The notes beneath the pieces were generated by a model. That model did not search any database. It was not told where the DNA came from and worked only from the letters and a program-made list of their open reading frames with translations. DNA of 64,000 nucleotides from Miscanthus floridulus (taxonomy: Eukaryota; Streptophyta; Magnoliopsida; Poales; Poaceae): NCBI RefSeq assembly GCF_019320115.1, contig NC_089597.1, positions 118,240,000-118,303,999 of the forward strand, written 5' to 3'. Every line of letters starts with the position of its first letter. Position 1 is the stretch's first letter. This document shows positions 22,936-50,994 of this stretch, piece by piece. A program made the position numbers and the translations under genes.

Positions 22936-23028
22936 GGGTTGGTTTGGTAGACTAGATTAAGACTGCCTAGGCTAGGATTCTAGCCAAGCTAGAAATTGGC
23001 CAACAAACCAAACACACCCTTGTAAGCG
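22936..23028. repeat. Small MITE-like inverted repeat
   Basis: GGGTTGGTTTGG on the left and CCAAACACACCC on the right flank about 70 bases containing paired CTAG words. The size and ends resemble a short MITE remnant in the 5' flank of the F-box locus. The target duplication is not clear. Confidence 0.35.
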
Positions 23029-23346
23029 TTCGGCACTTGGGCTGAACTGCAGTCGTCGCTGGCCTGTGGGATCTGAACCTCGATCTGGACCCACCTGGCA
23101 AAGACACCATCAAACTAGGCAAGCCACAAAACTCACCTGTTGATGAGAAAACCATAGTTCGTTCGATCTATCCCGCATTTTTGCTGTCACCAACCACCAA
23201 CCAAGGTGGCATGCCGCCGCCGCCATCGGAGCTGATGGAGGAGCTCGTGGAGGAGGTCCTCCTCCGCCTCCCGTCGGAGAACCCCGCGAGCCTCGTCTGC
23301 ACCGCCCTCGTTTGGAAGCTCTGGTGCCACCTCATCTGCGGCGTCG

Positions 23347-23555
23347 GGGATATTTAACTTATTGCCATCCTTACGGATAGCACCTCTCCAATTGCCAGCT
23401 TTAGAATGGAACCTACAAAATTGTCATACAAAATAGTGAACCTCATACGTTTTTGCCACTTTTGATGATGTGGCGCGCCACGTGAGCTTGCCAGCGCAGC
23501 AGCGCCCATAGGAGCCCTAACTTAGCATGGAAAAAGACCATTGTGCCCTTGCCTC
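23347..23555 (+). repeat. Left terminal inverted repeat of the Pack-MULE
   Basis: It starts GGGATATTTAACTTATTGCC and pairs with 43775-43981 read in reverse. Similarity fades after the AAAGACCATTGTGCCC word near 23550. Confidence 0.85.
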
Positions 23556-23704
23556 CTTCTGCCTTTGTGGCCCTAGCGTTCAGCGCCGATCTCCATTCTC
23601 TTCCCCGCTGGTCTCCATTCTCTCCCTGTCGCACCAGCGTCCACACGTTGCTCCCCGTTGTTGACTCGCTCGTCGTGGTGTCGCTCGCCCTCGCCCTCAC
23701 CGGC

Positions 23705-24174
23705 GCTGGCGCCCGCGACCGGCGTGGAGGTACGCCAGCCCGTGCACCACGCCCACACACGCATGTAGCTGGGCCGTCTACTCTAGCTCTAGCGTGTCGA
23801 CGCCAGCGCAGGGGATGGAAGAGCGTCTGGTCCAAGAAGTCCTGGTTCATGTACTCGTACACCAGCAGCTGTCGCCCGGCGCCCTCCGCCTAGAACCCGC
23901 GGAGCTTCACCAAGTTCACGTTGTGGACGTTGCCGATCACGGCGATCTCCGTCAGGAACTCGCGCTGGCTCTGTGTGCCTAGCCCGTTCATCCGCTTCAC
24001 CGCCACAGTGCTCTGGTCAGGGAGCTCACCACGGAACACGGAGTCGATCTGCCACTTGAAGCTGTTCGTCGCTGCGTCGTGGCGTCCTGGTCGGCAGGTC
24101 GGGATGAACATGTTCTCGTCGAGGCCCTCGACGTCAAACAGGGCGGAGGACGTAGCCCGCGCCAACGATAGCAT
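23705..24174 (-). pseudogene. Receptor-like kinase fragment (S-domain/SD2 type)
   Basis: The minus strand encodes part of a protein-kinase N-lobe. VFRGELPDQSTVAVKRMNGL includes the VAVK lysine, and EFLTEIAVIGNVHNVNLVKL covers the alphaC-helix and following strand (GNVHHVNLV in the family). A TAG at 23892-23890 interrupts just after RGF. LLVYEYMNQDFLDQTLF (hinge) and, after a shift, GLAYLHAG follow. The activation loop and the rest of the C-lobe are missing, as is the ectodomain. It lies inside the Pack-MULE, so it is most likely a captured fragment. The resemblance is to At5g24080-like G-type lectin kinases; subfamily placement is inference. Confidence 0.75.
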
Positions 24175-24671
24175 GGCCGACAGCTTGAACCAGTTGCTGC
24201 TGCTCTTCTTGACGTTCTGCGGGCTACGGCCGGCACCTCGTGAGCCACTGCGTGGCCATGGTGTAGAGCAGGTGGTTGCAATCGTTGGTCGGCGCGGCCC
24301 TGAAACATTCGGCTGGTGGCGGTGGCGGTCCGTACAGACATGGGCCGCCTAACGCCGGCGGTGGTGATGGCGCTGCTCGTCGTCCTTGCGGCCATGTCCG
24401 TGCTCCCGGCGATCAACGTGACGACGATGGCGTTCGAGGACGCGTAGGCAACATGCCAACATCCTCCGCTCCGCCGACCACGGCACCGACGATTGTCTAT
24501 TACCAACTTTTCATGCACGCCTTTGTCAAACACATTCATCAATAAACAATTTGATTGCTGGATTGCTGGATTGCTTGTCGATCATATTCAAAAACATCTA
24601 TCCGATGAGTGAGCAATTATTAATCCGATTGATGAACGAGAATGCATTTGCGGTGGATTAATTTGTTGCAG

Positions 24672-24956
24672 GGTCTGGTTTCATCTCCTCATCCATGTAT
24701 GTACGAGCACGGCTTCTTCAGCGCATTCATCAAGCTTCCCTCCAACTACATGCTTCCTGCCTTCCTACATGCTGCCTGCAGGCATCCACCGGCGACGCGT
24801 TCAAGAAGCGGCACAACAAGCTGGACTTCGAGTTCCTGGGCAACATTTGGGGCAAGCCATGGCGGGTGAATGCAGACCAACGTGTATGGCAACGGTGGCG
24901 TCGGCCGAGGCTGGAAGGAGCGGTACGTGCTGCTGTTTGACCCAACCAGGGAGCTC
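24672..24956 (+). pseudogene. XTH fragment, 5' part
   Basis: After an acceptor-like TTGTTGCAG (ends 24671) the frame reads SGFISSS and, one base shifted, YEHGFFSAFIKLPSNY. Then HNKLDFEFLGN (24812 on) and GKPWRV follow, and after another shift NVYGNGGVGRGWKERYVLLF. This is a glycoside hydrolase family 16 XTH, which cuts and rejoins xyloglucan in the cell wall. The catalytic motif is normally HDE(I/L)DFEFLG; here the first glutamate is lysine and the aspartate is asparagine, so it would be inactive even without the frame breaks. It ends where the solo LTR was inserted. It is cargo of the Pack-MULE. Confidence 0.8.
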
Positions 24957-27155
24957 TATGGCAGAATCGTTTGAAATAACACATTTTCGAAGACGCTCGT
25001 CTTCCACTGGACACTAAACACCTCGAAAGTTAGCTACATCGGACAGTTCTATCGAAGCCCACCCCAAGGGAGAACTCGAAACAATCCACGTTTTACCGCT
25101 AGGATCCAATAATGAGTATGAGCTTACAACACTTAGTCCATTTGATACAACAAGAGTTCTTGAAAATTATTTATTACAATACCAGAGTTCAGAGTGCGGT
25201 AATTAAACAGCAGAATGAAAATAAACATCTAAAAGAAACGATACAAGGATCCGTCTGTGCCCACTAGAAGAATCCTCCACATAAGAGCTACTCCTCAAGC
25301 TGCACCTGTAACAGGGGTAAAATAAAACCTGAGTACACAATGTACTCGCAAGACTTACCCGACTAGTGGGAATAGTTTTTTGACTCCAAGAAATACGATA
25401 GGCAATATGGGTTTGCTGTTTTCTTTTTGTTTGCGAAAAGCATCACTAATAGTTCATTCTTACAGTCAAGCTTTATTAGCAGTCATGATTACATCATTAG
25501 CTAACCATTCTAGTTAAGCACATGTTCTACTTTCAAGCAAGGGTTGAGCCATCAGGACCATTTTATCATCTTTCATCTTCCAGTTCTTACTATAGTGCTA
25601 GACCCTAGCCAAGTCGTACCGTCTCACAGAAACGGCGATTCATGAACCAATGTATCCCAGCTGGGTATCCCGAAACACATGCCCCATTTGTACCACAGGC
25701 ATAAATAAGACCAACCCATTCTACTCTTACCACGGGGTCGAGGTCCCCGTCCAAACTTAGACTACAAGCCCCCACACTTGAGACCCGGCCTCAGTATGGT
25801 GCTTAGACCTCCACCTGTCCCCACCTCTAATCAGTCAGTCCAGAAAGAGCCGGAACCCACGACAAGAACGTAACAAGCCTTCCCGCTCCCATAAGCAAGT
25901 ATGTGCTTAGGATAATAAGTCTGTGACCTGACTACCATCCATAGCAACGGACGGTACTTAATCGACACAAACAGGGAAAACAGTGTAGCCAAGCTAAGCC
26001 CTGATGGGCGCATGACACAACCTGTTACACCCACCAATACCCATACCATATCCCTGCCCTGTCTCCATTTTACCTTTCATCATTTTATCATGAGAGTAAT
26101 TATAATCATCTATTGTGAGTAACGGTAGGTTACTCACGCTACCGAAAGCCTAAGTATAGCAGCTACTCGAACCTATACTAGTAGGACTCATAGAACAATT
26201 ATATCTATGCATATGGTTTTCATAAAATTCTTGTAACGTAAATGCACATTACATATATATATTCAGTGATTATAAAAAATAAGGGTTATGCACCAGGGCT
26301 TGCCTTGGGCAGACGAGGTGTCAGCTGAGTCAGTCAGTAGCGGCTCCGGGACCTCCTCCTGCACGAGAATCTCCTCCTCATACTCCTCGATGATCTCCTT
26401 GAACTCATGATCGTCGGTGGTCACGATCTCCACCAACTCGTTCTCTACATGCATGCGATGATGATACAACACTTAGCATTTATGCAACAACAACTCTTAA
26501 AATAAGAATACACATACTAAGCTACTAAGCTAGCTCTAATGACTAAGATACTAAGCTAACTATCATCTTCATCAAGCAAAGTGTTGGGTTCAACTAACAA
26601 ACACCTAGCTTTACAAATGAAGAATATATCTTTATTTCTACTAATGATTTAATGTATATTTAAAACAAAAAGCACTTAACTATCCTAATGTTTAGTCTAT
26701 TCTAAAGCTACAATAATTACAGTGAGCACATAATAATACCATGAGGCTACTATAAAATTTTTAGGACTAAAGCTATCACCAATTTATCATAAAAATTCTT
26801 ACAATATTTAACCTAATAATATTAAGCACTTTCAAATGATTTAATAGCTCCTGGTATCAATATGTATATATGAACTAAATACGAGAGCATAATTTTAGAA
26901 ACCTAACAAAATTTGTTTCACAATTTTTGGACATCTATATGATTTTATATGATTTATCAAAGATCAGTTCAAAAATTAAATTAGAAAATTATTTCTAATT
27001 CCTTATGAAAAAGAAAAATGAATTCTCCCGCGTTGCCCACACGCGCGGCCCACTCGACGTCGGCCCACGTGGAGACGGCCTGCGGTGGGGAAATCCCCCG
27101 CGCGCTGATGTTTTTGCAAAATAGGCCTCGCACTTCTCCCGAATTACAACGAAGT

Positions 27156-29042
27156 TGTCGGATACCGTGAGAAGGGGTACCCTAAGCAAGGTCAAAAAAC
27201 GACTGCTTAGATTTCGTAAAGATCGAAACCAGCTAAACACTGCTGGCCTCGGCCGATTCTCCGACTCGCCCGAGGCCTCATCGGGCCTCGGCCGATTCTC
27301 CGATTCGCCCGAGGCCCCCTCACCGCGGGCCTCGGTTGATTCCCCGCCGAAGGCCTCGGCCGGGCCACCGACCCTCCGTCTCACGCAAGGAGGGCTCGGC
27401 AGCACTCCGCTACCTCTTCCTTCTCCCGTCCCTCTGGCAAAACGTCGCGTCACATCAACTCAGCCAACTGCTGCCCCTGACAACAGCCGCACGCCCGGCA
27501 CAGTACAGCAAGTGGCCGATGGGACAGGAGGCAGGACTAGGCAGGGGTTACCCGCCACTGTACTAACCACCGTAACGCCCATGCCTCACTGTATGCCAAC
27601 TCCTGCACCAAGGACAATGCAGCGCGGGGAGCCACATCTGGGCTACTGTGGCCTCGGAATCAGTACCCAGGGCCAATAACTCCCCCCAAGACCTCGACAG
27701 ATTGCCTCACGGGCTCGGCAGCGTGAGGGTCCATGACCACCGAGCCCCACACGATGGCTCGGCCTCGGCATCTGCAGAGCCGCTACTCCCTGCGACGTCA
27801 TTACACGGCAACCAGCACGTCGCGCCATGTCCTGCATCAAGCCGTATTGGAGCCCCGCGACGCACGAGACTGAGTATGACCAGCATGTCACTTCCGCACG
27901 TCCCATCAAGGCGCTCAACCACTCCGACAAACCCCACGACGGCACAGTACAGCGAAGTGGCAGACCAGACGACCGTCACGTCAGCACCCTGCCATCCACG
28001 GCGGGACTGTGCAGGGGTTACCGGCTACTGTGCCGCCTAAACTCCTACACCCAGGACGGACACGACGTGGGGAGTCGGAACCGGGTTCCTGTGACCTCCG
28101 ACGAACTAACTGAGTTCCGCCTCGCCCGAGACTCCCGGTAGGGCCTCGGGCGAACTGGCCATGTTCCGCCTCGCCCGAAGCTGGGCTCGTCCCGCAACCT
28201 CGTCGCCTCCACCTCAAAAGTCACTCTGGCAGGCTATCACATCCAATTAAAGCGCCCAGCTGCCCCCACTACGTAAGCCACGATCGGTAGTACGCCGCGA
28301 CAGGGGCGACAGGACAACGGCCAAATCGCCTTTTTTCCATCCCTTACTGACGATACAGGGTACCGTATCCTGTAGATGCACGTTCCGCACTGTTCCGCCT
28401 AAATCAACTATCGACGATGGCCGCCCAGACCTCACGTTGCCACCTGCTGAAGGCCTCGGCACAGCAGGCCTCGGCACAGTGGGTCTCGGCCTCAGCACGG
28501 CAGGCTTCATCACAGCCTACTACGGCAGCCACCAGACCTCGGCACTTCACCAAGTCAACAAAAGTACAGGAGCGCCACATGTCGCCAGACCATACCGATT
28601 AGACATCGACGGAAACTCCCACAACGCCATGCTACTCCAGGGAGCGGAATACGTCAGCAAATAGTAGCCTTCTCATGTACTTCTGGCTTCCTCCTTGTGA
28701 CTATAAAAGGAGGTAGCCGGGGCCATTTCTAGGGGGGCAGAGAAAAAACGAACACACCGATAGAACCACGCACTTCCGGGCTGCTTGGGAGCAACGTCTC
28801 GAGCAGTCCGCATCACCCTCGCCGAGATCTGGGGTTAGCTCCCTCTCTCACCTAGCTTGTAACCCCTACTACGAGCACTCAGATGCAAGGAATACAAGAT
28901 CGATCTCTCAGACTGGACGTAGGGCTTCGATTGCCCGAACCAGTATAAACCTTGTGTCTCTTTGCATCACCATCCGGGATTAGGGGCACGCAGCACAAAT
29001 TCACTCGTCGGTTGGGGGACCCCCGGTTCCAAAACACCGACA
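27156..29042 (+). repeat. 5' LTR
   Basis: It runs from TGTCGGATACCG to AACACCGACA. A TATA box (TATAAAAG, 28702-28709) marks U3/R about 340 bases before the end. The U3 is rich in CTCGGC and CCTCGGCC words. Open frames on both strands are identical or nearly so in the other LTR and are not genes. Confidence 0.93.
28702..28709 (+). promoter_or_regulatory. TATA box of the 5' LTR
   Basis: TATAAAAG in GTGACTATAAAAGGAGG. Transcription would be expected to start about 30 bases downstream, near GGGGCAGAGAAAA. The same site is at 39080-39087 in the 3' LTR. Confidence 0.75.
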
Positions 29043-29044
29043 GT

Positions 29045-29062
29045 TGGCGCGCCAGGTAGGGG
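29045..29062 (+). other. Primer-binding site
   Basis: TGGCGCGCCAGGTAGGGG begins two bases after the 5' LTR. TGG complements the CCA end of a tRNA primer. I do not name the tRNA. Confidence 0.75.
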
Positions 29063-29099
29063 CTCTGCGTGTCAGCTCCGTCATCCTAACAAGTTCCGG

Positions 29100-30914
29100 A
29101 TGGCAGACCACATACGACCATTGCGTCTCGGCACCATAGTTTGGTTCGGGAGCCTAGAGTTCATGTCTCTAGGGCATGAGTACGACATGGTGCTCCTCAC
29201 TCCTCGAACCCCACCGTCAGACGACGAAGTCGCGCCTCGGCAGCCCAGGCGCAGGCGGCGCCCGGGCGGCCGCTCTCGCCACGCTCGCCAGGCACGACGC
29301 GAGCAATGCCACCCCGACGCTACGCAAGCCCGGGGCGGCACGCCACTCCCCGCCGATATCCTGCGACCAGCTGTTGGTACGGGGTCCCTGGTTGGGGACC
29401 TGTCTGACCTGAGCCTGGACAAAGGAAAATCGCCGGGGGCTTACGGCGATGCCCAGTCATCTAACCCCGCTCCGCCACTCCCTGAAGAACCGACCCCGGC
29501 GGGGCAGAATCTGGAAACGACCCCGCTCCCGTACCCCTTTGGGTTGAGGAATGCCGCCACCTCTTACGCCTACGCTTACGCTGCCGCTCACGAGCATCCC
29601 TCGGAACGCCGCCAGCGCTTCGCTCTCGACCTGAGCACCCACTCCGACCCCTCGGACGAGGCCGAGGCATGGCCCGGGGTAGATTTCTCCGAACTCCACA
29701 ACCCTGGGGCTTTGCGCCAATTCTTGGCCGCAAGCGACTACTGCCTCGGCTATCCCGACTCCGACGATGAGGGGACTCACGATCCGTCCCGTGAGTGCTT
29801 CCACGTCGGGCTCGGGATGCCAACGGTGGGCGAAGAGGAAGAAAGGACAGGCAATCATTCACCGCCCCGGGCGGGGGCGGGTGATGCCACGCCTCCGCGT
29901 CTCGAAGCCCCGGCAGCACGGAACGAGAACCCCGTTCGCGGGGGGCATCGACGCCCAGACCTGGAGCAGCTCCGCGAGCTTCAGGCCAAGGTCGAACAGG
30001 ACCTTCCTGCTGACAGAACCGAGGCCCGACGGCTTGCGCGACGCGCCAAGACTTACGTCCTCTGCGACGGCGAGTTATATAGGCGCAGCCCATCTGGTAT
30101 TCTCCAACGATGCATCACCACCGAGGCTGGCCAATCTTTACTTCGGGACCTACACGCGGGAGTCTGTGGGCACCACGCGGCGCCTCGGACGCTCGTGGGT
30201 AACGCCTTCCGCCAAGGTTTCTATTGGCCAACAGCGGTGGCCGACGCCACAAAGCTAGTACGCACCTGCGAGGGATGCCAGTACTACGCTCGACAGACGC
30301 ACCTCCCGGCCCAAGCCCTCCAAACCATCCCCATCACATGGCCATTTGCTGTGTGGGGGCTGGACATGGTTGGGCCTCTGCAGAAGGCACCCGGGGGCTA
30401 TACCCATCTGCTGGTAGCTATCGACAAATTCTCCAAATGGATCGAGGCTCGTCCGATCGCTCAGATCAAATCCGAGCAAGCGGTGCTGTTCTTTACGGAT
30501 ATCATCCACAGGTTCGGGGTTCCTAACACCATCATCACTGACAACGGGACACAATTCACCGGTCGCAAATTCCTAACGTTCTGCGACGACCACCACACCC
30601 GGGTGGCCTGGTCGGCCGTAGGGCACCCAAGGACGAATGGCCAAGTAGAGCGTGCCAACGGCATGATCCTACAAGGCCTCAAGCCAAGAATATTCAACCA
30701 GTTGAAGAAGTTTGGCAAGAAATGGCTTGCCGAACTCCCGTCAGTCATCTGGAGCCTAAGAAATACCCCGAGCCAGGCCACGGGATTCACACCGTTCTTC
30801 CTGGTCTATGGAGCCGAGGCCATCCTCCCCACTGACTTAGAATACGGTTCCCCGAGGCTACAGGCGTACAACGAACAAAGCAACCGCACTGCCCGCGAAG
30901 ACGCCCTCGACTAA
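29100..30914 (+). CDS. Gag N-terminal region fused in frame to integrase
   Basis: The ATG at 29100 is the first in frame after the primer site; 604 codons follow. Residues 1 to about 300 are an acidic, proline-rich gag N-terminal part with no zinc knuckle. Near residue 300 the frame passes directly into integrase: an HHCC zinc module (H352, H358/H359, C390, C393) and a catalytic core with D422, D481 and E517, spacing D-58-D-35-E. HPRTNGQVERANG surrounds the glutamate. Protease, reverse transcriptase and RNase H are absent, a gap of about 3 kb compared with full Tat-lineage gag-pol. The TAA at 30912-30914 is premature: the C-terminal integrase domain continues in the same frame to 31199. Integrase inserts the cDNA in the nucleus; this copy would need enzymes in trans. 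Confidence 0.85.
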   Translation: MADHIRPLRLGTIVWFGSLEFMSLGHEYDMVLLTPRTPPSDDEVAPRQPRRRRRPGGRSRHARQARREQCHPDATQARGGTPLPADILRPAVGTGSLVGDLSDLSLDKGKSPGAYGDAQSSNPAPPLPEEPTPAGQNLETTPLPYPFGLRNAATSYAYAYAAAHEHPSERRQRFALDLSTHSDPSDEAEAWPGVDFSELHNPGALRQFLAASDYCLGYPDSDDEGTHDPSRECFHVGLGMPTVGEEEERTGNHSPPRAGAGDATPPRLEAPAARNENPVRGGHRRPDLEQLRELQAKVEQDLPADRTEARRLARRAKTYVLCDGELYRRSPSGILQRCITTEAGQSLLRDLHAGVCGHHAAPRTLVGNAFRQGFYWPTAVADATKLVRTCEGCQYYARQTHLPAQALQTIPITWPFAVWGLDMVGPLQKAPGGYTHLLVAIDKFSKWIEARPIAQIKSEQAVLFFTDIIHRFGVPNTIITDNGTQFTGRKFLTFCDDHHTRVAWSAVGHPRTNGQVERANGMILQGLKPRIFNQLKKFGKKWLAELPSVIWSLRNTPSQATGFTPFFLVYGAEAILPTDLEYGSPRLQAYNEQSNRTAREDALD

Positions 30915-31199
30915 CTGGAGGAAGCCCGAGACGTCGCGCTGCTACACTCGGCCAGGTACCAGCAAGCCCTACGACGCTACCAAGCCCGGCGCGTCCGAAG
31001 CCGGGACCTAAAGGTGGGCGACCTTGTGCTGAGACTGAGGCAGAGCAACAAGGGCCGCCACAAGCTGACCCCACCCTGGGAAGGGCCGTACATCGTCGCT
31101 CAAGTGCTGAAGCCCGGGACCTACAAGTTAGCCAACGAGAAGGGCGAAATCTTCACCAACGCTTGGAACATAGAACAGCTACGTCGTTTCTACCCTTAA
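30915..31199 (+). pseudogene. Integrase C-terminal domain after the premature stop
   Basis: This is the same frame as the gag-integrase gene, open for 94 codons to a TAA at 31197-31199. It carries VGDLVLRLRQSN, WEGPYIVAQVLKPGTYKL and NAWNIEQLRRFYP, the usual end of gypsy integrases in this lineage. It has been cut off from the upstream frame by one stop codon at 30912-30914. Confidence 0.8.
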
Positions 31200-31340
31200 A
31201 ATTCCAAACGTTGTTTACATTGTTTCTCGAAATGCAATAAAGAAGCGTTCTTAGTTGTTATAATTTTTTCGAGAAACCCCCCTTATAAACAAGCCGATTG
31301 TATAGAACCCAAGGACCATACGATCGCCTCAAAGGCGAAA

Positions 31341-31764
31341 AGGCCGGCTGAGCCGTGAGAACGGCCTACGCCTCCGGGCTACGGCAACTCCCTCACCACC
31401 TTTTCACCCAAAGGACAGCGTAGGCTCCGAGGAAGTTCTGTACAGAGAGCTTGTCTATCAATAGGGGCTCGACATCACAATAACGCAATAAGGGAGACTC
31501 GGCTCTGCCTCTGCAAAGTCGAGCCTCCCTCGGGGGCTAAAAAGGGGGAACCCCCCTAAGTCCCGGACACCATTTCTCAACCGTTTTCCGAAAATTTCCA
31601 CGCCAAACTCTCGCGCTCCGACGGGACCTTCACAAGAAACCCAAAGACCAAAAGTCTGTCTGGAGGCCAAAGGGCCGGTCGAGACGTGAGAACGGCCTAC
31701 GCCTCTGGGCTACGGCAGCTCCCTCACCACCCTTCGCCGAAGGACGACTTAGGTCCCGAGGGTT
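31341..31764. repeat. Direct repeat downstream of pol
   Basis: Two copies of about 95 bp (31341-31434 and 31668-31764) share GTGAGAACGGCCTACGCCTC, GGCTACGGCA and CTCCCTCACCACC. No gene is visible in 31200-31940. The stretch lies between the end of the sense gene and the end of the antisense gene and may hold the 3' ends of both transcripts. Confidence 0.65.
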
Positions 31765-31940
31765 TTCTTTGCGGATTCCCAAGATCGAGATAGAGGGCAC
31801 GGACTTAGAAATAGAATGGAAAACGGTTAAGAAACACACATACACAGATACTTTAAGGGCCTCGACGGCCACAAAAAACGTCGCGATTCGGCAACTAACC
31901 CAAATCCGGTTACATGGCCCCTTTTGGCCCAGGTCAAAGC

Positions 31941-34900: not shown

Positions 34901-35376
34901 TAGAGGGACTGCCGGTCTTGGCGCACGTGAAGGGTGCAGCCGCCGGCCCTCTGCGCCTTCCGAGCCCCCCTCGTCCCCCCCGGCTTGGAGGTGAACGTCG
35001 CTCGGAACAAATGGAGCCACAACTCCCAGTGGGGAGCGATCCCCAGATACCCCTCGCAGACGGCGACGAAGATGGCCGCCTGCGCGATGGAGTTGGGGCT
35101 GAAGTTGTGCAGCTCCACGCCATAGTAGTGCGGGAGTGCCCGCATGAAGCTATCCGCCGGCGACCCGAAGCCTCGCTCGTGGAAGACGACGAAGCTCACC
35201 ACGTAACCGTCGCGCGGCCTCGGCTCCGACTCGTCCCCCGGAGCAATCCACTCCGGCTCGTCGGGGTCGGTGATTGGGCGAAGAAGACCGGCCTCCACGA
35301 GCGACTGCAGCTTCTCCTCGGTGATGTCGGACCGCCCCCAGGGATCCGCCGGGAGGATGACGGGACCACCAGCCAT
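31941..35376 (-). CDS. Antisense spliced accessory gene of the retrotransposon (Transposase_28-like)
   Basis: Five exons read on the minus strand: 35376-34459, 34384-33768, 33682-32941, 32852-32444 and 32365-31941. All four introns (74, 85, 88 and 78 nt) have GT-AG ends, and the phases 0, 2, 0, 1 fit, giving 3,111 nt (1,036 codons plus stop). Exon 1 holds the 'putative gypsy-type transposon' domain (PF04195) known from grass elements; GYVVSFVVFHERGFGSPAD and PHWELWLHLFRATF lie in it. Exon 2 has a basic, Glu/Lys-rich stretch (nuclear signal-like) and Pro-rich parts. Exon 3 is Ala/Glu-rich and acidic. Exons 4-5 are coiled-coil-like. A TAG at 32690-32688 (codon 814) interrupts exon 4. Such antisense accessory genes are known in Tat-lineage elements, but their role is unknown. 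Confidence 0.8.
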
Positions 35377-35540
35377 TGCGCGGCGGAGGACGCTGCTAGG
35401 GCGGTAATCTCTCTCCCTCTCTCTTTCGATCTCTCGCCCTCGCCCTTCTCTTCCCCGGCGCTCTATGCTCTCAGCGACGGCACGGAGGCAGCAAAAGCGA
35501 ACGCGGAAAAGGTAAGGAGGGAGAGGGCGAGGCTGTTTGC

Positions 35541-35550
35541 GTATTTATGC
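35541..35550 (-). promoter_or_regulatory. Possible TATA box of the antisense gene
   Basis: On the minus strand this is GCATAAATAC, about 165 bases before the antisense ATG at 35376. An A/G-rich leader follows. It is the only TATA-like word in that interval. Confidence 0.4.
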
Positions 35551-35799
35551 AGGGACGAATCGAAACCGCCGGGCGACGAAATCGGGGAAGTTTCCCCCAG
35601 AAAATCCGGCGCGGTTATCCAGATCCGGTCTTACCGCCCACGCACTCCTCGTTAACCGCGCGTGCAGGTACGTCCCGTCGGCTGACGCCACGTCGCGTCC
35701 AACCGCAGCAGCAGCAGGTGCCGTTTCGCCTCCCCGAGAAAGCCGCCTCAAAAGACGCGCCTGCAATTAATTAGCCGTAGGCGGAGAAATAACCCCCCC

Positions 35800-37330
35800 G
35801 ATTCCTTCCAGGCGAAGGAACTGGGCACCGAGCCCGCTACGGTCCAGGGGTTCGAAGGCTGGGCCCTCAGGGGTTTCGACAGCCGCCCCAGGGCAACAGA
35901 GTCAGGGGCAACTACGGGCGAGCCTATGCGAGGCCGAGGCCCAAGCAAGCGAAACGCTTGGGACGCCCTGTGTTGTGTCCGAGACCGGCAGGGAGGTCTC
36001 CGAATGGGATCCCACCGTAGGGAGGCACCGAGGCCCAGCGAACGGCCTCGGCACCCACTAGAGAAACCCTCCGGTACTCTTGGAGCGCGTCTCCGGACCG
36101 CTAGCCGACCCCCAGCGAACGGGGTACGGGCCTCCACTCGGACTTACCCGATAACAGCTCACCGGAAGTGCCATCGCTCGCGCCCACCGAGGGTAGCGTG
36201 GCACATTCCACCCCTCCTTCCGAGCGAAAAGGAAGCGCGAGGGTCGAATAAAAAGTCAGGAGAATCCCTGACGGCCCCCTTGCTCCGTGCAGAGGCTAAG
36301 GGACTCTTCCTGCAAAACGTTGCCGAGGCCCAGCGACTTGAGCTCGCACACGAGGGGTCTCGGCAAAACAAACCCTCCTTCCGAGCGAAAAGGAAGCGCG
36401 AGGGTCGTTCAAAAAGCCGGAAGAACTCCTGACGGCCCTCTCGCTCCGTGCAGAGGCTAGGGAGCTCCTTCTGCAAAAGACGCCGAGACCCCGCGACCTA
36501 GGCTCGCACCCGAGGGGGGCTCGGCAGTCAGACCCTCACGCGCGAGGGGCGAACCAAAAGCCAGGGGACCTGTGACCGCTCTCTCGCTCCGTGCGAGAGA
36601 CTCGGGGGCTCCTCCTGCAACTTTGCCGAGACCCAGCGGCTCAGGCTCGCACACGAGTGGGCTCGGCAAACAGCCCCCCCGTCCGAGCGAAAAGGACGGG
36701 CGGGGGACGGGCAAAAAAGCCGGGAGGACCCCTGACCGCCCTCTCACTCCGTGCGGAGGCTAGGGGGCTCTTCCTGCACCCAAGATAAAGACAAGCGACC
36801 CGAGCCCGTTACGGTCCAGGGGTTCGAAAGCTGGGCCCCCCAGGGGTTTCGATAGCTGCCCCAGGGCAAAAGAGTCAGGGACGACTACGGGCGAGCCTGT
36901 ACGAGCGCGCCCCGTGTCGTGTCCGAGACCGGCAGGGAGGTCTCCGAATGGGATCCCACCGTAGGGAGGCACCGAGCCACCGAGGCCCAGCGAACGGCCT
37001 CGGCACCCACTAGAGAAACCCTCCGGTACTCTTGGAGCGCGTCTCCGGACCACTAGCCGACCCCCAGCGAACGGGGTACGGGCCTCCACTCGGACTTACC
37101 CGATAACAGCTCACCGAAGATGCCATCGCTCGCGCCCACCGAGGGTAGCATGGCATCCTCCACCCCTCCTTCCGAGCGAAAAGGAAGCACGAGGGTCATA
37201 CAAAAAAGCCGGGGGAACCCCTGACGGCCCTCTCGCTCCAGGCAGAGGCTAAGGGGCTCTTTCCGCAAACATCGTCGAGGCCCCGCGACCCGAACTCGCA
37301 CCCACGGGCCTGGCAAACACGATCAAAACG
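35800..37330. repeat. Internal repeat region between antisense gene and 3' LTR
   Basis: A block of about 340 bp (35833-36170) recurs at 36798-37140, sharing TTACGGTCCAGGGGTTCGAA and GGGATCCCACCGTAGGGAGG. Between and after the copies are about five units of roughly 155 bp, marked by TCCGAGCGAAAAGGA (near 36220, 36382, 36681 and 37170) and by GCTCCGTGC..GAGGCTA words (36285-37240). No gene is visible. The region lies upstream of the antisense gene, so it may supply its promoter. Confidence 0.7.
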
Positions 37331-37516
37331 CCTCACTCGAAAGAGAAAAAAGCCCCTGAAGAAGTGAAAATCACTCCTCCAGGGCCTCGGGGGCTACACC
37401 CGGCGGGTGCGCTCGCGCGCACCCACCGAAACCTCGAAAACAGAACCCCATCCCGACAGGAACTATCAAGAGCCAATTCTCATCAGAACCTCAGGGGGAG
37501 TGCCTCCACTCCCCCC

Positions 37517-37532
37517 AAGGCTCGGGGGCTAC
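37517..37532 (+). other. Polypurine tract of the young element
   Basis: AAGGCTCGGGGGCTAC directly before the 3' LTR. The purine run is imperfect but correctly placed. Confidence 0.55.
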
Positions 37533-39420
37533 TGTCGGATACCGTGAGAAGGGGTACCCTAAGCAAGGTCAAAAAACGACTGCTTAGATTTCGTAAAGAT
37601 CGAAACCAGCTAAACACTGCTGGCCTCGGCCGATTCTCCGACTCGCCCGAGGCCTCATCGGGCCTCGGCCGATTCTCCGATTCGCCCGAGGCCCCCTCAC
37701 CGTGGGCCTCGGTCGATTCCCCGCCGAAGGCCTCGGCCGGGCCACCGACCCTCCGTCTCACGCAAGGAGGGCTCGGCAGCACTCCGCTACCTCTTCCTTC
37801 TCCCGTCCCTCTGGCAAAACGTCGCGTCACATCAACTCAGCCAACTGCTGCCCCTGACAACAGCCGCACGCCCGGCACAGTACAGCAAGTGGCCGATGGG
37901 ACAGGAGGCAGGACTAGGCAGGGGTTACCCGCCACTGTACTAACCACCGTAACGCCCATGCCTCACTGTACTGCCAACTCCTGCACCAAGGACAATGCAG
38001 CGCGGGGAGCCACATCTGGGCTACTGTGGCCTCGGAATCAGTACCCAGGGCCAATAACTCCCCCCAAGACCTCGACAGATTGCCTCACGGGCTCGGCAGC
38101 GTGAGGGTCCATGACCACCGAGCCCCACACGATGGCTCGGCCTCGGCATCTGCAGAGCCGCTACTCCCTACGACGTCATTACACGGCAACCAGCACGTCG
38201 CGCCATGTCCTGCATCAAGCCGTACTGGAGCCCCGCGACGCACGAGACCGAGTATGACCAGCATGTCACTTCCGCACGTCCCATCAAGGCGCTCAACCAC
38301 TCCGACAAACCCCACGACGGCACAGTACAGCGAAGTGGCAGACCAGACGACCGTCACGTCAGCACCCTGCCATCCACGGCGGGACTGTGCAGGGGTTACC
38401 GGCTACTGTGCCGCCTAAACTCCTACACCCAGGACGGACACGACGTGGGGAGTCGGAACCGGGTTCCTGTGACCTCCGACGAACTAACTGAGTTCCGCCT
38501 CGCCCGAGACTCCCGGTAGGGCCTCGGGCGAACTGGCCATGTTCCGCCTCGCCCGAAGCTGGGCTCGTCCCGCAACCTCGTCGCCTCCACCTCAAAAGTC
38601 ACTCTGGCAGGCTATCACATCCAATTAAAGCGCCCAGCTGCCCCCACTACGTAAGCCACGATCGGTAGTACGCCGCGACAGGGGCGACAGGACAACGGCC
38701 AAATCGCCTTTTTTCCATCCCTTACTGACGATACAGGGTACCGTATCCTGTAGATGCACGTTCCGCACTGTTCCGCCTAAATCAACTATCGACGATGGCC
38801 GCCCAGACCTCACGTTGCCACCTGCTGAAGGCCTCGGCACAGCAGGCCTCGGCACAGTGGGTCTCGGCCTCAGCACGGCAGGCTTCATCACAGCCTACTA
38901 CGGCAGCCACCAGACCTCGGCACTTCACCAAGTCAACAAAAGTACAGGAGCGCCACATGTCGCCAGACCATACCGATTAGACATCGACGGAAACTCCCAC
39001 AACGCCATGCTACTCCAGGGAGCGGAATACGTCAGCAAATAGTAGCCTTCTCATGTACTTCTGGCTTCCTCCTTGTGACTATAAAAGGAGGTAGCCGGGG
39101 CCATTTCTAGGGGGGCAGAGAAAAAACGAACACACCGATAGAACCACGCACTTCCGGGCTGCTTGGGAGCAACGTCTCGAGCAGTCCGCATCACCCTCGC
39201 CGAGATCTGGGGTTAGCTCCCTCTCTCACCTAGCTTGTAACCCCTACTACGAGCACTCAGATGCAAGGAATACAAGATCGATCTCTCAGACTGGACGTAG
39301 GGCTTCGATTGCCCGAACCAGTATAAACCTTGTGTCTCTTTGCATCACCATCCGGGATTAGGGGCACGCAGCACAAATTCACTCGTCGGTTGGGGGACCC
39401 CCGGTTCCAAAACACCGACA
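37533..39420 (+). repeat. 3' LTR
   Basis: Same ends as the 5' LTR. I saw five transitions and one inserted base (near 37975) relative to it. It is followed by the GAAGT target duplication. Confidence 0.93.
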
Positions 39421-39425
39421 GAAGT

Positions 39426-40568
39426 ACTAACATTATTTCCCCCTCTCTCAAACCTTCTCACTTAACCCCCTGATTTTTCCCTAATTCACCTGCGCGTACC
39501 CCCGACAACTTAGTGCACGGCAGCGCGGTGAGCGGTGGCACTGAGCGCCTACGCCGGCCACCTGGGAACTACGCAAGATGCGCTGGAGCAAGCTGGAGCG
39601 ACGCGTGGCCATCCGCTATGGCGGCGCAGCTGCCCCAGCGATCTAGAGCACCTATTGGCTAGCGAGAGAGCATTAGTAGACTACCGTGGACCTTGCCGAG
39701 GTGACGGTTGGGGTGGAGGATGGTGGAGGAGAGCTGGCGATGTGCGGCCGAGCCATGCGGCAGTGCACCGCGGCGGCACGGTCGCGTTAGTGACGATAGG
39801 GAGGCGGTAGAGGTTCGGCTAAGGCACGTAAGGTGGAGAGGGAGGCAAGGTGAAGCTAGTGGTGCAAGTGAATTGGCTTGGTAGGGACGGTAGGAGGGCT
39901 ACCCACATCCACGGCCGGACGCGGCCTTATTGGCACGATGGCGGAAGAAACTCTAAATTGGGGCTTGGCCGGGCACGGTTCAAGGCTAGGTAGGGTCAGG
40001 CAGCGAGAGGACCTAGTGGTGAAGCCGTGGATACGATGAATTGAATGGAGGTGATCGTTCACTGGGTAAATTGGATGGCGCGGCTCGTGGCGATGGTAGA
40101 GGGAGAAAGAGAGAAAGAGAGAGATGGGGCATGGTAGGTGGGCTCTACACGTCCTTGCCTTGGCGGTAGACGGTCAGCGTGAACGTGGAGGCACACGTGT
40201 AGACGCTATGGACAAGGCGCGCACATACCGGACTGGCATGGCCCAAGCGTCCGCAGTGTCTTAAATGACAAGGCAATGGTGAGTCCGGCCACATGCGCGC
40301 GGCAGTGGTAGCCTCGAACTGGGCTGGCAGCGGCGCAGAGGGTACAGCGAACAGGCACGGATGCAATGACGATGCGATGGTTGCGGCAGCGTCGCGGTGC
40401 GAGACGGGTCAGCAGCGTGGCGAGGCTACACGGACGCGGCGGCAAGGTGATAGCACCAGCAGTGGCTTCGTCGTGGCATGGGGTGGGCGACAGCAGCTCG
40501 GCGCGGTGGGGCCAGCGACAGTCGGGCCGTAGCTAGGCCAGAGGCAGCCATGGTCGGCCACGCACAGC
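39426..40568. other. Continuation of the gypsy-type solo LTR, no gene
   Basis: GC-rich interior of the LTR that starts at 24957. Overlapping frames on both strands (such as 39535-39810 and 40293-40532) look like chance in GC-rich DNA. A GAGAAAGAGA tract is at about 40100-40125. Confidence 0.5.
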
Positions 40569-41394
40569 TGAAAGGTCCTTGTTTGGTTTTGGTAATTGAG
40601 TGACAACTTAGGTGGACTAATTGTGTTTATGTGAGATACACAGGTAATTAGTCTACAGGCACATGTGTGTGAGCAACATATGCCATGGAGGTGAAAATGG
40701 CTTGGAGATGTTGCAAAGCTCACACATGTGATGATGAAGGAGCTTATTGCACATGAGACATGACATTGAGTCATGTGATCAAGGTGGAGAAGATCAAGAC
40801 AAGACTTGGCTTGATGGACCGGTTGCAAGCGTGAAGGGCAAGTCGAAGGCTTTGGAGTGATGGACCGCGTGGCGGTGAAGCTTGAGCAAGACTTGACGCC
40901 GATGGACGATGGCAACGGTAAAGAGCAAGTGAAGTCAAGATCGATGAACCAATATGATCACGTGATGATATGAAGTGGATCATATCATTGTTGATCGTGT
41001 TGGTGCATGTGTTGCATCGATGTTGGAGGAGATGGAATGGAATGCGCAAGGCAAATGTATAACCTAGGGCATTTCATTTCACCGGTCATAGGAGTGTAGA
41101 GAAGTTTATGGCTGGGTTTATGATAGATGGCCGTACTATCAAGAGGAGCAAACTTATTTGCATATCGGTCATCTAAGTGCCACTCGAGTGATCTAACTTT
41201 GCATCGTCGCTAGGATTGAGTGGCGTGGCAAGTTGAGTGGCTAACACTTTGGAAAATGATTGTAAAAAGCTAACACACATACACATGGTGGTGTACACTT
41301 GGTGGTGTTGGCATATTTACAAAGGAAATAAAGTTGGAGTTGATGTGGATCAACTTGGTGAAGAAAAGGAGTGAGTCGCGCTGGTCAGAGAGTG

Positions 41395-41770
41395 ACCGGA
41401 CACATCTGGTCTGGTGATCGAACACGACCGGTATTAACCGACGAACTCAGCGACTGGACGCGTTCGGTCGCCACACCGGACGTGTCCGGTGTGAATCTGC
41501 ATGGTCGGTGTTCTGTGAACGGTCGACCGGACGCGTCCGGTCGGACCTGGGTGCTTACTAGACTCGACCGGACGCAGCACCTCAGTGTCCGGTCATGTCT
41601 GCCTCTGCGTCCTGTGTGAGCGTCCGGTCGGACATGTCAGAGAGCCGTTGTGGCAACAGCTAGCTTGAATGGGACACGTGGCGGTTAGGCGCTACCGGAC
41701 ACGTCCGGTATAGTGACTAGACGCGTCCGGTATGCACGACTGTCGCGTCCGGTGCTGCGTCCGGTCAGCC
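41395..41770. promoter_or_regulatory. Cluster of CCGGACnnGTCCGG palindromes
   Basis: At least three full palindromes (near 41491 ACCGGACGTGTCCGGT, 41528 ACCGGACGCGTCCGGT and 41694 ACCGGACACGTCCGGT) and several half-sites (GCGTCCGGT) lie 50-420 bases before the TATA box at 41818. They are CpG-rich and probably belong to the LTR promoter. Confidence 0.65.
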
Positions 41771-41817
41771 CGAAAAACGCCCAGTGAAGGGGTAACGGCT
41801 AGTTTAGCCCTTGGGGC

Positions 41818-41825
41818 TATAAATA
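41818..41825 (+). promoter_or_regulatory. TATA box of the second solo LTR
   Basis: TATAAATA in GGGGCTATAAATAGAAG, with the palindrome cluster upstream. Confidence 0.65.
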
Positions 41826-43543
41826 GAAGTGACCCTCAGCCATGGCTGGTGCGGAGCACCTTGGGGGACTTTGTGTCCATGCTTGAGAGTGCTTAGGAGC
41901 CCTCCATCTCACACATACTTGATAGTGATCATCCTATTGTGTGAGTGAGCAATTCTAGTGCGATTGCATCATGAGGTTGCATCAAGTGGCACTAGGTAAT
42001 CGAGTTGCAAGCCGGTGGTGCTTTTTACTCTTGGAGGTTGCCACCTCCTAGACGGCTTGGTGGTGGTCTCCGTGGAAGCCCGCAAGAAACTTATGCGGCG
42101 CTCCGGAGAAGTGCTTTGTGAGGGGTACTTGTGCTCGCCCCGCGGGAGTCGCGAAGAGCAACTTTAGTAAAGCGTGTCATTGAGCTACCCTCACTCAAGG
42201 GGTAGGTTCTTGCGGCGTCCGACGTGCGAGCTTAGCGGGTGATGCTAATTAGCCGCCGAACCACCAAGTGAGCGGTCGACACAACGGACTAGCGTGTTGG
42301 CAAACACGTGAACCTCGGGAGAAAAATCATCGTGTCAACTTTGTTCTTCCCATTGATTTGCATCCCCATTACACAAGCTTGTAATTACTTTTATACATAT
42401 TAAGCTCGTGTAGTTGCTCTTATAATTAGTTAGCTTGTGTAGCTTACTAGTTATCTTCTTGCTTGTGTAGTATAGAAGTAGCTCCTTTGCGTGGCTAATT
42501 TGGTTTCCGTAACCTTGTTAGTCACATTGCTTAGTTTGTGTAGCTAAGTAATTGCGCTCTCTAATTTGGCATTGGTTGCCTTGTTATTAAGTATTGCTAG
42601 TGAGCTTAGTTGGCTTTGTGCTCTTGCTTACTAGCATGTGTAGAAGCTCCCTTGTCGCCTAAAGTATTAGTGGTATAGGTTTGTGTGACCTTGCTTCTAG
42701 AATTGGTTAGGAGAGCTCTATCTAGTCCGGCACCTTTGTTGCCAATTAGTTTCTTTGAAAGGTGTTAGTGAATATAGATAGAGGGGTGTAGTCTTGGCTA
42801 GACCGATAGTTATAATTCCGCACTTGTTTCGGTTAGCCGACGAGATTAAGTTTTAGAAAAGACTATTCACCCTCCTCTAGTCGCCATCTCGACCCTTTCA
42901 GCAGCAGCGCGCGCACGTGATACCAACGCGGTGACGCCGAGCACCCGATCGTAGTGACCGCGCCCACGCGGCCAACCAACTCTAGACCGAGCTGTGCATG
43001 AATTTTAAAGCGCCCAAAACAACTAAATGGTTGCTTCAGGCGTCAAACCATCTTCACCATGCTCAAGATGTCATATGAGACTACCAAATCAAGCTATAAC
43101 TGTGCACCACCCTCTAACCCAATCTCTCAAAATAATTTGCTAAACATAGCAATGCCTAGCTGTTGACAGACTTAGAAATTTTTCTAAGTTTTTTAGCTGA
43201 ACTTGATTTCAATTTGCAATTTCTAAGCTAGTAAAAATATTAGCTAGTAATATTATTTTTTAACAGCAAGTATTTCACTGTCATCTACAAAGTTTGTACT
43301 TCAAACTTATTTAAGTATCATACACATGTTCTATAGTATTTTTGCTTAATAAAAATTAGTTTTAAACCCTACTTGATATACATGAACTGTTGAATCAACT
43401 TTCGTTTAATATTTTTATTAGTCTTTTTAAGTTACAAGAAATTTATCTACATATTCTATCACATGCATTAACACATAAACATGATGCTCATGACATATTT
43501 TAGTAAATAATTTAGGGTGTAACACCGAGGGTGTTACAAGTTC

Positions 43544-43693
43544 CTCTGCTACTCCATCCTATGGACGGCCGTCGCCGTGTCCTTCTACGTGGACGACGCG
43601 AGCGAGGTGCGCTGGTCGGACGCCATGGGTGGGGACTTCCCGTCCAAGCCCATGTCCGTGTACACGCCACCACGTGGGACACCTCCACCTGAG
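43544..43693 (+). pseudogene. XTH fragment, 3' part
   Basis: This is the continuation of the XTH fragment beyond the LTR. YSILWTAVAVSFYVDDASE, then VRWSDAMGGDFPSKPMSVY, match the conserved XTH stretch after the catalytic domain strand (family pattern YSILW..FYVDD..IR.V.R, then GGDFPSKPMS.Y). A one-base shift then yields TTWDTST before a stop. Together with 24672-24956 it forms one fragment of about 430 bp split by the 18.6-kb LTR complex. Confidence 0.8.
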
Positions 43694-43774
43694 GGCTAGG
43701 GGAGACAAGGGCTCTCGGCTATGAGTGGGTTTGACTAAAGGAGCGACCGGCGCTGGGCCTCAAGGCAGAAGAAG

Positions 43775-43981
43775 GCGGGGGCAAAACGGTCTTTTCCTGT
43801 GCTAAGTTAGGACTCCCACGGGACCTACTGCTCTGGCACGCTTGCGTGGCGTGCCACGTCAGCAAAAATGGCAAAAACGTATGAGACTCACTGTTTTGAA
43901 TGACAATTATGTAGGTTCCATCGTAAAACTAGTAAATGGAGAGGTGCCATCGATAAAAAATGGCAATAAGTGAAATATCCC
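43775..43981 (-). repeat. Right terminal inverted repeat of the Pack-MULE
   Basis: In reverse complement it starts GGGATATTTCACTTATTGCC and continues in step with the left repeat through CACCTCTCCA, TGGAACCTACA and TACGTTTTTGCCA. Confidence 0.85.
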
Positions 43982-43999
43982 GTGGCGCCGCGTTACGCA

Positions 44000-44553
44000 T
44001 CAAGATGGCAACGGGTACGTACCCGATGGGTACTGGCCACCCGTACCCGCACCCGCCAGATCAAAATCTTACCCGTCGGGTTACCCGTACCCGCAGGCGG
44101 GTAGAAAATTCATTCCATACCCGCACCCGACGGGTAATTCTTACCCGACAATATACCCGAGTTCACACACCAAAATATAATAGCTTCCAGCAAAACAAAT
44201 CAACAATAGAGCAGCAAAACAGAAATATGGGCTGGTGGAGTGGTGTGAGGATGAGGATTAGGGTTTGAGGGAGTTCTGGAATATATATACTCATATGCTT
44301 ATATGGGCCAAATATGGGCTATATGCTTATATGGGCTAAAATTGCAGAGGTTGGATATTATTTATGCGGGTTTTTTTTACCCGCGGGTATGCGGGTATGG
44401 ATAGTATACACCCACACCCGTACCCGCATACCCGATGGGTACAAGAATTCGTCCAATAACGTACCCGCGGGTGCAAAATGTCTTCCATACCAGCCTCCTT
44501 ATCGGGTAAAACCCGTCGGGTACTCGGATTTCGGGTACCCGTTGCCATCTTGA
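44000..44553. mobile_element. Non-autonomous hAT element in the F-box gene
   Basis: The terminal inverted repeat is TCAAGATGGCAACGGGTAC (start 44000), with its complement ending at 44553. It is flanked by a perfect 8-bp duplication GTTACGCA (43992-43999 and 44554-44561). The subterminal regions are crowded with ACCCG/CGGGT words. No transposase is present. It lies 18 bp from the Pack-MULE end, in the coding sequence of the F-box gene. Confidence 0.9.
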
Positions 44554-44633
44554 GTTACGCAGCATGTTCCTCGAGTTCCACCGCAGCGTGCTCCCTAGCT
44601 TGGCGTGCTCTACCGCAAGGACGTGGTCACACA

Positions 44634-45130
44634 AGTGGCGGACCCAGTGAGTAGTCCAGGTAGGTCCAAGACTACCCACAAATTTAGCCCAAAATTCTAT
44701 TACTACTCTTCAGAAACCGGCCCACGGTCACTCTCGTCTCAGCCCAGGCGGAAGACACCACAAATCCACAAGCTCTTCAAAAAAATAACACGCCCAAGAG
44801 GGATCGAACCGGGGGCCTCTTGTCTCAGGCTGCAGCGCGCTTACCAGTCCAGCTACGAAAGTTTGTTGGATAGGTGATACCCGCAACCCTATTTAATAAG
44901 ATAAAATAGGAAAAAATACCCCTTAATTAATCACCCATTGATATGCTAAATCATATCCTAAACGACTTTCTTTACCGTATGGAGAGAATATTTATGTAAA
45001 TTTCGAACCTTTTAAATGTATTATCGTAATTTAATTAATTTATAGCTATATTTATTCAACTTTTTATTTAGATTTTACAGTATTACACATAAATTTTTTT
45101 TACTAGAACTACCTGTCCCGGTCCGCCACT
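44634..45130. mobile_element. hAT-like element with a tRNA-like segment
   Basis: The ends AGTGGCGGACC (44634) and GGTCCGCCACT (45130) are inverted repeats, of the grass hAT type that usually starts CAGTGGCGGA. Flanks GTCACACA (44626-44633) and GACAGACA (45131-45138) agree at six of eight bases. Inside, on the minus strand, are a pol III A-box-like TAGCTGGACTGG (44855-44844) and a B box GGTTCGATCC (44820-44811). It splits the F-box coding sequence. Confidence 0.7.
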
Positions 45131-46184
45131 GACAGACACTTCCCCCTGCGTCGAATGCCGACGGCATACTTCGTCCCCACAATCTCCTTCCTCCCGGCGC
45201 GCGCTGCCGCCGGCCGCGGCCAATACGGCTGGTGCGCCGTCGATGCCCGCCACGGCCACGTCCTGCTCTGGCGGAGCGCTCCTTCGAGTTATGGGCGGGC
45301 TGATCTCTCCGTCTGGGACCCCGTCACGGACGAGCAGCGAGACCTGCTCGAGCCGCCGCTCTACTGCACGGGTACTATCGCAGGTGGAACGACGCCGCCG
45401 CCGCCGCCGGTGGCGACTGCGACCACCTCGACTGCCGCCAGAGACCTTTCCTGGTTGTCGTCATTGACATCAAGCCCCACAAAATGTACTTGTCCGTGAG
45501 GCTGCTGCGTGGAGCAACGTAACCGTTTGTGAGCGCCCCACCCCCAATTTCCTCACATCCTGAAGCCTGCGCCCGGCGTCCTCGTGCGGAGCGTGTTCTA
45601 CTTCTTGGTTCATCTTAACGACGAGATCGTGGAATACGACATGGCCACACGGGAAGTATCTATAGTTCGCCTACCACATGAGTCCGTCGTCTGACACGAA
45701 GCATTGTGCTCATGACTGATGATGATGGTGGGCTAGGATTTGCTGCCAACGTGAAGGACAAACTACAGCTATGGTCGAGGGTGGCTTGTCCAGATGGAGA
45801 TGCAGGCTTTGTTCTAACTAGAGTCATTGATCTTCGGAAAGTGCTTCCTTCAGGTGTACTCATCAAGAACTCAATTCAGGTGAATGGTTTCGCGGATGGT
45901 GGTGCCAACCGTGTCCTGTTCATAAGGATGTCAGATAAATTGAGAACGAGCTCTAGCTCGGTTGGCATGCATTGCAGGTGTGCACGCTGCCCACCAGCGT
46001 TCGTAATCTCAGATTCTGCGCTGGTGTTCTCACTGGAATTTATTCCCATAATAACATTTTAGTGAAGTCTCTCAACACGTGGTGCCACAAGAGAACTGCG
46101 ACGTACCCATCGCCTACAGAGCCTTCATGTTTCTGGTGACCTCTCAAGTACGCGTCTTCATATCTGTGTATAGTTGTAGGTCTG

Positions 46185-46459
46185 CCAAAGGGCCTCTAGT
46201 CCAACTGGTTAGAGCGTCCCGGCGGCACTTCTCAGGTCCTGGGTTAGACTCCTCGTGGGAGCGAATTTCAGACTGGGGTTAAAAAAAATCCCCTCATCTG
46301 TCCCACGCCAAAGCACAGGTCTAAGGACCGGCCCGTTCTCATAGGGCGACGGTGCCGCTGTGTAAGGGTGAGGCAGGGGTTCGGGGGTTTTCTGGGCGTG
46401 CGTGAGAAGGTTTTCTTCTAATGGCAATACCTGAGGGTGATCATACTCTCGCAGGTCCA
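46185..46459 (+). mobile_element. tRNA-derived SINE with 17-bp target duplication
   Basis: It is bounded by perfect copies of GTATAGTTGTAGGTCTG (46168-46184 and 46460-46476). It contains an A-box-like TCCAACTGGTTAGAGC (46200-46215) and a degenerate B box GGTTAGACTCC (46242-46252). The 275-bp body lies just downstream of the F-box remains. Confidence 0.8.
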
Positions 46460-46476
46460 GTATAGTTGTAGGTCTG

Positions 46477-50972: not shown

Positions 50973-50994
50973 TCCCCTTAGGTCTTGACTCTAA

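Follow-up and report, generated by a model that had tools for sequence, protein, structure and literature searches.

The window analyzed here is a stretch of 64,000 nucleotides from Miscanthus floridulus (C18:118240000-118303999; contig NC_089597.1), with no ambiguous base (N count 0). It contains an F-box gene split by a Mutator-like element bearing pieces of host genes (a Pack-MULE); the latter is itself split by a solo long terminal repeat (LTR), which in turn harbors a young Retand/Tat-type LTR element and another solo LTR. An earlier note on this DNA had described the arrangement as a five-level nest with the XTH cargo of the Pack-MULE counted as a level. We are highly confident that the nesting by successive insertion is real, and its boundaries were recovered at the level of single bases. 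The insertion depth is, however, three (the Pack-MULE, then the first solo LTR, then either the Retand-type element or the second solo LTR) rather than five, because the XTH fragment came with the Pack-MULE, copies of which carry the same piece on C8 and C11. The host gene, the Pack-MULE and its cargo are laid out as follows:

23211..23346, forward strand: 5' stub of the F-box gene, from the ATG to the left MULE target copy; aligns with proteins P0001, P0004, P0005 and P0007; homologous DNA on C19, C3 and, in two places, C4
44554..46659, forward strand: remainder of the F-box gene, broken by the insertion hAT2 and by a stretch bearing a short interspersed nuclear element (SINE), with several frame changes; from protein alignment and the C19 relative
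23347..43981, forward strand: Pack-MULE, delimited by terminal inverted repeats (TIRs) and a target duplication; copies on C7, C8 and C11
23338..23346, no strand: left 9-bp MULE target duplication GCGGCGTCG, base-level reading; a single GCGGCGCCG stands at the C19 empty site
43982..43990, no strand: right 9-bp MULE target duplication GTGGCGCCG, base-level reading
24340..24956, forward strand: 5' part of the XTH cargo, exon pieces with intron-like gaps; PF00722 at E 3.4e-21 (typed composite), 1umz and others; P0115, P0117 and P0119
43539..43663, forward strand: 3' part of the XTH cargo, past the first LTR; collinear with P0115 and P0119
23818..24063, reverse strand: receptor-like kinase fragment, a second, antisense cargo; PF07714 at E 9.8e-8 (typed fragment), the plain open reading frame (ORF) giving E 0.0047, below the cut-off

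When joined, the F-box pieces are collinear with an uninterrupted protein of 195 residues (P0001, JGI source), and also with P0003, the Urochloa protein P0004 and sorghum SORBI_3006G276801 (P0005); the XTH pieces on the two sides of the first LTR are likewise collinear with P0115 and P0117. The expectation of the earlier note that each set of joined pieces would align in order with a single protein was thus borne out. A Pfam search with the typed F-box composite did not find the F-box model, the matches to PF23635 (E 0.0055) and PF25279 (E 0.14) both being below the cut-offs; the gene is identified as an F-box gene because its homologs carry F-box domains. Its locus on C19 is locally collinear with the window, and C18 and C19 are, as we take it, homoeologs of sorghum 10. 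A frame change is found in the C19 copy as well; decay of the gene may thus have been under way in any case. Judged from its sequence, the host is a decaying, broken F-box gene on C18.

With later insertions removed, the Pack-MULE has a net size of about 2.05 kb and is bounded by TIRs of 232 and 231 bp with 82.6% identity. Its target copies GCGGCGTCG and GTGGCGCCG differ at 2 of 9 positions, and the corresponding site on C19 (...TGCGGCGCCGC...) has one 9-bp target copy. Taken alone, a flush match would arise by chance with a probability of 0.017 for 4/5, 0.0017 for 7/9, 0.001 for 5/5 and 5.5e-5 for 8/8. The XTH cargo matches the xyloglucan endotransglycosylase structure 1umz in the PDB with E 1.9e-17. 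A transposase model was found in none of the 6 ORFs of at least 120 residues that overlap the left part, and the right part has no such ORF, though a heavily broken transposase could escape this search. The copies on C7, C8 and C11 have different flanks, which indicates that the unit moved to several places; the C11 copy has a 7/9 target duplication, and those on C8 and C7 have no clear one. Long TIRs, a flush duplication in the 8-11 bp range, host-gene pieces, several copies and no detected transposase together identify the element as a Pack-MULE. A literature search for Pack-MULEs with a xyloglucan gene cargo returned nothing on the subject, as judged by titles. The C11 copy, at C11:91494001-91504000, matches the annotated M. 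floridulus protein P0119 in two pieces; P0119, which takes in MULE sequence beyond the XTH part, is a chimeric gene model annotated within a transposon.

The elements lying inside the Pack-MULE are:

24957..43538, reverse strand: first solo LTR, now in three pieces (24957-27155, 39426-40568 and 42906-43538) that sum to 3975 bp; target duplication AGCTC/AGTTC
27156..39420, forward strand: Retand/Tat-type LTR element of 12.27 kb; target duplication GAAGT on both sides, the target being present once in the second C18 copy of the locus
27156..29042, forward strand: 5' LTR of the Retand/Tat-type element
37533..39420, forward strand: 3' LTR of the Retand/Tat-type element
28923..30911, forward strand: open frame from the end of the 5' LTR into integrase (domain matches PF00665 and PF17921)
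34417..35544, reverse strand: antisense Transposase_28 ORF (PF04195, E 5.3e-17)
40569..42900, no strand: second solo LTR, inside the first LTR; target duplication ACAGC/GCAGC

The first LTR sits within the XTH cargo. Its empty site, GGAGTTCCT with one AGTTC, is preserved in the MULE copies on C8, C11 and C7, the first LTR being absent from the C11 copy and the C7 copy showing a small deletion directly after AGTTC. A 5-bp duplication, an empty site and the lack of an internal region identify this element as a solo LTR. Exact-pattern scans of viral and of genome contig collections for the same empty site gave 0 matches each. The left end of the LTR reads TA in the window and TG in the second C18 copy (TGTGACAG); a non-canonical TG..TA end is ruled out by the latter.

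The second C18 copy just mentioned is a segment collinear with the window, lying inverted at C18:119.056-119.090 Mb, about 0.82 Mb away; window positions 1475-21240 have no match of at least 100 bp in it. It holds the MULE at the same site together with the first LTR, and therefore both are older than the split of the two copies. The Retand-type element and the SINE described below are absent from it, and are therefore younger than the split. The empty site of the Retand-type element there is ACAACTAAGTACTAAC, with one target whose first base differs. Hence, empty sites with one target copy are available for the MULE on C19, for the first LTR on C8, C11 and C7, and for both the Retand-type element and the SINE in the second C18 copy, and they dispel any doubt that chance matches would leave for these four. 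Loci lacking individual layers, which the earlier note had proposed to seek among orthologous loci, were accordingly found within the same genome for the MULE, the first LTR and the Tat-like element. The insertion order that it had proposed (gene, MULE, LTR, then the Tat-like element and the second LTR) is upheld by empty sites for three of the four elements.

Its LTR ends and 4/5 duplication make the second one a probable solo LTR. Elsewhere in the second C18 copy, a match to its family stops exactly at the left base of this LTR and 4 bp before the right one. That copy also has an insertion of its own that includes a piece of this family and lies elsewhere in the XTH cargo (joined reverse-complement positions 7598-12750). 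That each level would have its own duplication thus applies at base level to the MULE, both LTRs and the Tat-like element, and fails for the XTH cargo, which is not a separate insertion.

The LTRs of the Retand-type element are 99.74% identical (5 transitions, 1 indel; Kimura two-parameter (K2P) distance 0.0027), which corresponds to about 0.1 My at 1.3e-8; a rate of 1.38e-8 is used in a passage of PMC8238680. Before the 3' LTR lies a tandem array of 2.0 copies of 161 bp (36212-36526), the only such array found, and further spaced direct repeats occur at 35861-37270. A reverse transcriptase (RT) model is absent from all 26 internal ORFs of at least 120 residues, and the element is therefore not placed by RT phylogeny. 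The portion of PMC11963269 describing the Retand lineage reports a long region between pol and the 3' LTR with an antisense TRP28/PF04195 ORF, as seen here, tandem repeats in that region in about half of the elements, and some non-autonomous members; the present element differs in having no RT model and only one two-copy array. It is therefore called Retand-type and is probably a non-autonomous copy, not filed as a Retand member by RT.

The remaining features in and beside the F-box gene are:

44000..44553, no strand: hAT1, 554 bp, TIR TCAAGATGGCAACGGGTAC; target duplication GTTACGCA on both sides; absent from the C19, C3 and C4 relatives
44634..45130, no strand: hAT2, about 497 bp, TIR AGTGGCGGACC; target duplication degraded or ambiguous
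45943..46542, forward strand: interruption of about 600 bp in the last part of the F-box gene, SINE-like by eye, containing a nested SINE; absent from C19, with 46026-46184 present in the second C18 copy
46185..46460, forward strand: tRNA-type SINE with a perfect 16-bp duplication TATAGTTGTAGGTCTG (46169-46184 and 46461-46476)

Two hAT insertions had been proposed in the gene outside the MULE. The claim holds for hAT1, which combines a perfect 19-bp TIR with the perfect 8-bp duplication GTTACGCA, as expected of hAT elements, and is less secure for hAT2. The latter is also missing from the C19, C3 and C4 relatives, but its ends are ambiguous and its best 8-bp reading, GTCACACA/GACAGACA, agrees at 6 of 8 positions and includes two transversions. 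At the empty site of the SINE in the second C18 copy, the 16-bp target stands once and differs by one base. Its box-like motifs were judged by eye only, and Rfam gave no match for it, nor any match in a scan of the whole window. The SINE is nested in the older SINE-like stretch of the F-box gene. Farther along the window, a long open frame at 54131-55537 shares 92% identity with M. floridulus P0155 and is a relative of Os06g0683000; it is of C2H2 type going by source names, and has no Pfam match. An imperfect repeat array with a spacing of roughly 100 bp follows at 55691-56333.

The earlier note had further held that the mismatches in the target duplications are all transitions and rise with inferred age, giving a consistent relative clock. 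Their ranking of 2, 1, 1 and 0 does follow the order of nesting, with near-identical LTRs in the Retand-type element at its young end. However, the counts per site (MULE 2/9, first LTR 1/5, second LTR 1/5, Retand-type element 0/5) have overlapping 95% intervals, and four transitions out of four have a probability of 0.21 given the ratio in the TIRs. Transitions are indeed the rule in the MULE and LTR duplications, but this fails once hAT2, with two transversions on one reading of its ambiguous ends, is counted. Polarisation by the C19 site assigns a single C>T to each MULE target copy, at CHG on the left and at CG on the right; a placement of both at CpG was accordingly rejected. The mismatch of the second LTR could not be polarised. 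Furthermore, in the second C18 copy the left target of the MULE reads ACGGCGCCG and that of the first LTR reads AGTTC. The left-copy mutations of both elements hence postdate the split of the C18 copies, and cannot rank the MULE against the first LTR. In the left part of the MULE, C>T/G>A makes up 50 of 59 changes on the window branch and 38 of 49 on the other branch; since this DNA mutates mainly in this way, transitions are to be expected here. The two C18 copies, compared in more detail below, likewise differ more, and with higher transition/transversion ratios, in the MULE and LTR segments than on the 3' side. A consistent relative clock is not supported by these sequence comparisons, and we regard a usable one as very unlikely.

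The TIRs are no better suited to dating. Left TIRs of different MULE copies are 88-93% alike, to be compared with 81% between left and right in the window and 70% in the C8 copy, and 25 of 38 left/right differences in the window recur in the same two states at other copies (first 205 alignment columns). The C8 right TIR is 82% identical to the window's right TIR versus 71% to its left TIR. The divergence of the MULE TIRs (K2P 0.202) was hence rejected as an insertion age, as it is partly inherited in the family. Against inheritance stands the observation that right TIRs of different copies (73-82% alike) are no more alike than the window's own pair (81%); moreover, the count of 25 of 38 leans on the C8 right TIR, given that the outer end of the C11 right TIR is misaligned. 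An upper bound may come from the C19 locus: if the C19 site is homoeologous, the MULE inserted later than the C18/C19 split. A passage of PMC8238680 gives a subgenome Ks (synonymous divergence) of 0.051, or about 3.9 My at 6.5e-9 by our own arithmetic.

The mutational bias may extend beyond the elements. On the MULE side of the gene (23045-23346), all 11 window-branch changes are C>T/G>A; past the hATs, in the body of the gene, the share is 8 of 15. Fisher tests for the excess gave p 0.010 for 23045-23346 (11/11) and p 0.051 for the exon stub (7/7), from small, uncorrected samples with different outgroups. Such changes make up 6 of 9 at 23045-23346 in the second C18 copy; on the far side (46555-46709) they account for 2/2 in the window and 1/1 in the second copy, numbers that are too small to be informative. 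These counts suggest that silencing of the stack spreads into the F-box stub; that the neighboring host gene decays by C>T under the influence of the silenced stack, with an effect that fades within one or two kb, seems to us a nearly balanced proposition that falls just short of even.

Several observations weigh against the picture of a stack built by successive insertions and decaying by deamination. The second solo LTR lacks an empty site for comparison, as the second C18 copy is deleted from about 40430 to 46026 (window positions), a span that includes the spot; hAT2 lacks a clean target duplication; and the target mismatch of the first LTR is T>C, which is not a deamination. The stack could in principle be the product of rearrangement or of an assembly misjoin, as the region is repeat-rich and its inverted counterpart about 0.82 Mb away may itself be an assembly leftover. 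Yet the window is free of N, four insertions (MULE, first LTR, Retand-type element and SINE) have precise one-target empty sites, and the second C18 copy, though it has the MULE and first LTR in common with the window, differs by insertions and deletions of its own. We therefore consider an origin by rearrangement or misjoin extremely improbable, and retain successive transposition.

The status of the second C18 copy is a separate matter. A true inverted segmental duplication, as opposed to the other haplotype left in the assembly, is suggested by its inverted placement on the same chromosome, and by parts that have diverged by 5-14% (K2P), above the heterozygosity of 1.89% stated in a passage of PMC8238680. 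The four segments in the MULE and LTR differ between the copies by 7-14% with transition/transversion ratios of 3.5-6.4; on the 5' side the values are 10.9% (ratio 11) for the F-box exon stub, 7.2% (5.0) for 22334-23209, 2.5% (1.0) for 21241-21487 and 5.0% (1.3) for 1-814. For six segments on the 3' side (46480-62640), the divergence is 1.0-3.9% and the ratio 0.7-2.9. The duplication may also have edges, as the sample at 118.504-118.507 Mb has no partner in the 20 kb examined (118.857-118.877 Mb), and that at 118.216-118.219 Mb has only a 221-bp match of 76% in the 30 kb at 119.092-119.122 Mb. On the other hand, two samples of 3 kb taken rightward of the window, at 118.324-118.327 and 118.404-118.407 Mb, have inverted counterparts with identities of 96% and about 98.5-99%, near the reported heterozygosity, and the same passage of PMC8238680 describes an assembly from a heterozygous plant with haplotigs purged, which makes leftovers plausible. 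A true duplication is, in our estimation, a fair possibility that we hold with some doubt. The order of the insertion events is unchanged whichever it is.

Taken together, the locus is best explained by a series of ordinary events. A Pack-MULE, one copy of a small family bearing pieces of XTH and kinase genes, entered the F-box gene by cut-and-paste transposition with a 9-bp duplication, after the parting of C18 and C19 if the C19 site is homoeologous. An LTR retrotransposon then entered the XTH piece and was reduced to a solo LTR, presumably through recombination between its LTRs. A Retand/Tat-type element without detected RT and a second LTR, now also solo, later entered the first LTR, the Retand-type insertion and the SINE coming after the split from the second C18 copy. 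The silenced stack would mutate mainly by C>T at presumably methylated cytosines; if so, a run of transitions in the target duplications is expected, and implies no clock.

Comparable systems are known. Sugarcane SC-MuI.2, as described in a portion of PMC3418495, is likewise a transduplicated MULE flanked by TIRs and 9-base target duplications, and contains an LTR retrotransposon of 14,491 bp; its TIR identity is 88%, versus 82.6% here, and the present element differs in its XTH and kinase cargo, the absence of a detected transposase model and the two further elements within the LTR. Nested transposable elements occur in over a third of candidate coding MULEs of maize and rice, those of maize being mostly LTR retrotransposons, according to a section of PMC3903597. 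The Pack-MULE has the TIR identity above 75% and the at most 2 mismatches in duplications of at least 9 bp used there; that work covers MULEs with a transposase, and no transposase was detected here. The locus is therefore of an ordinary kind for grass genomes, adding depth and cargo but no new principle.

Its value lies in being a cleanly resolved, layered set of insertions checked by empty sites within one genome, and it shows why mismatches in target duplications and the divergence of TIRs should not serve as a clock in such grass elements. In Miscanthus, the Retand-type element and the SINE, each found on one C18 copy and missing from the other, may be usable as markers of segregating insertions. 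If the spread of C>T decay from the silenced stack is true and general, nested stacks of transposable elements would speed the mutation of neighboring host DNA, and target duplications, TIRs and flanks would then not be datable together by one rate.

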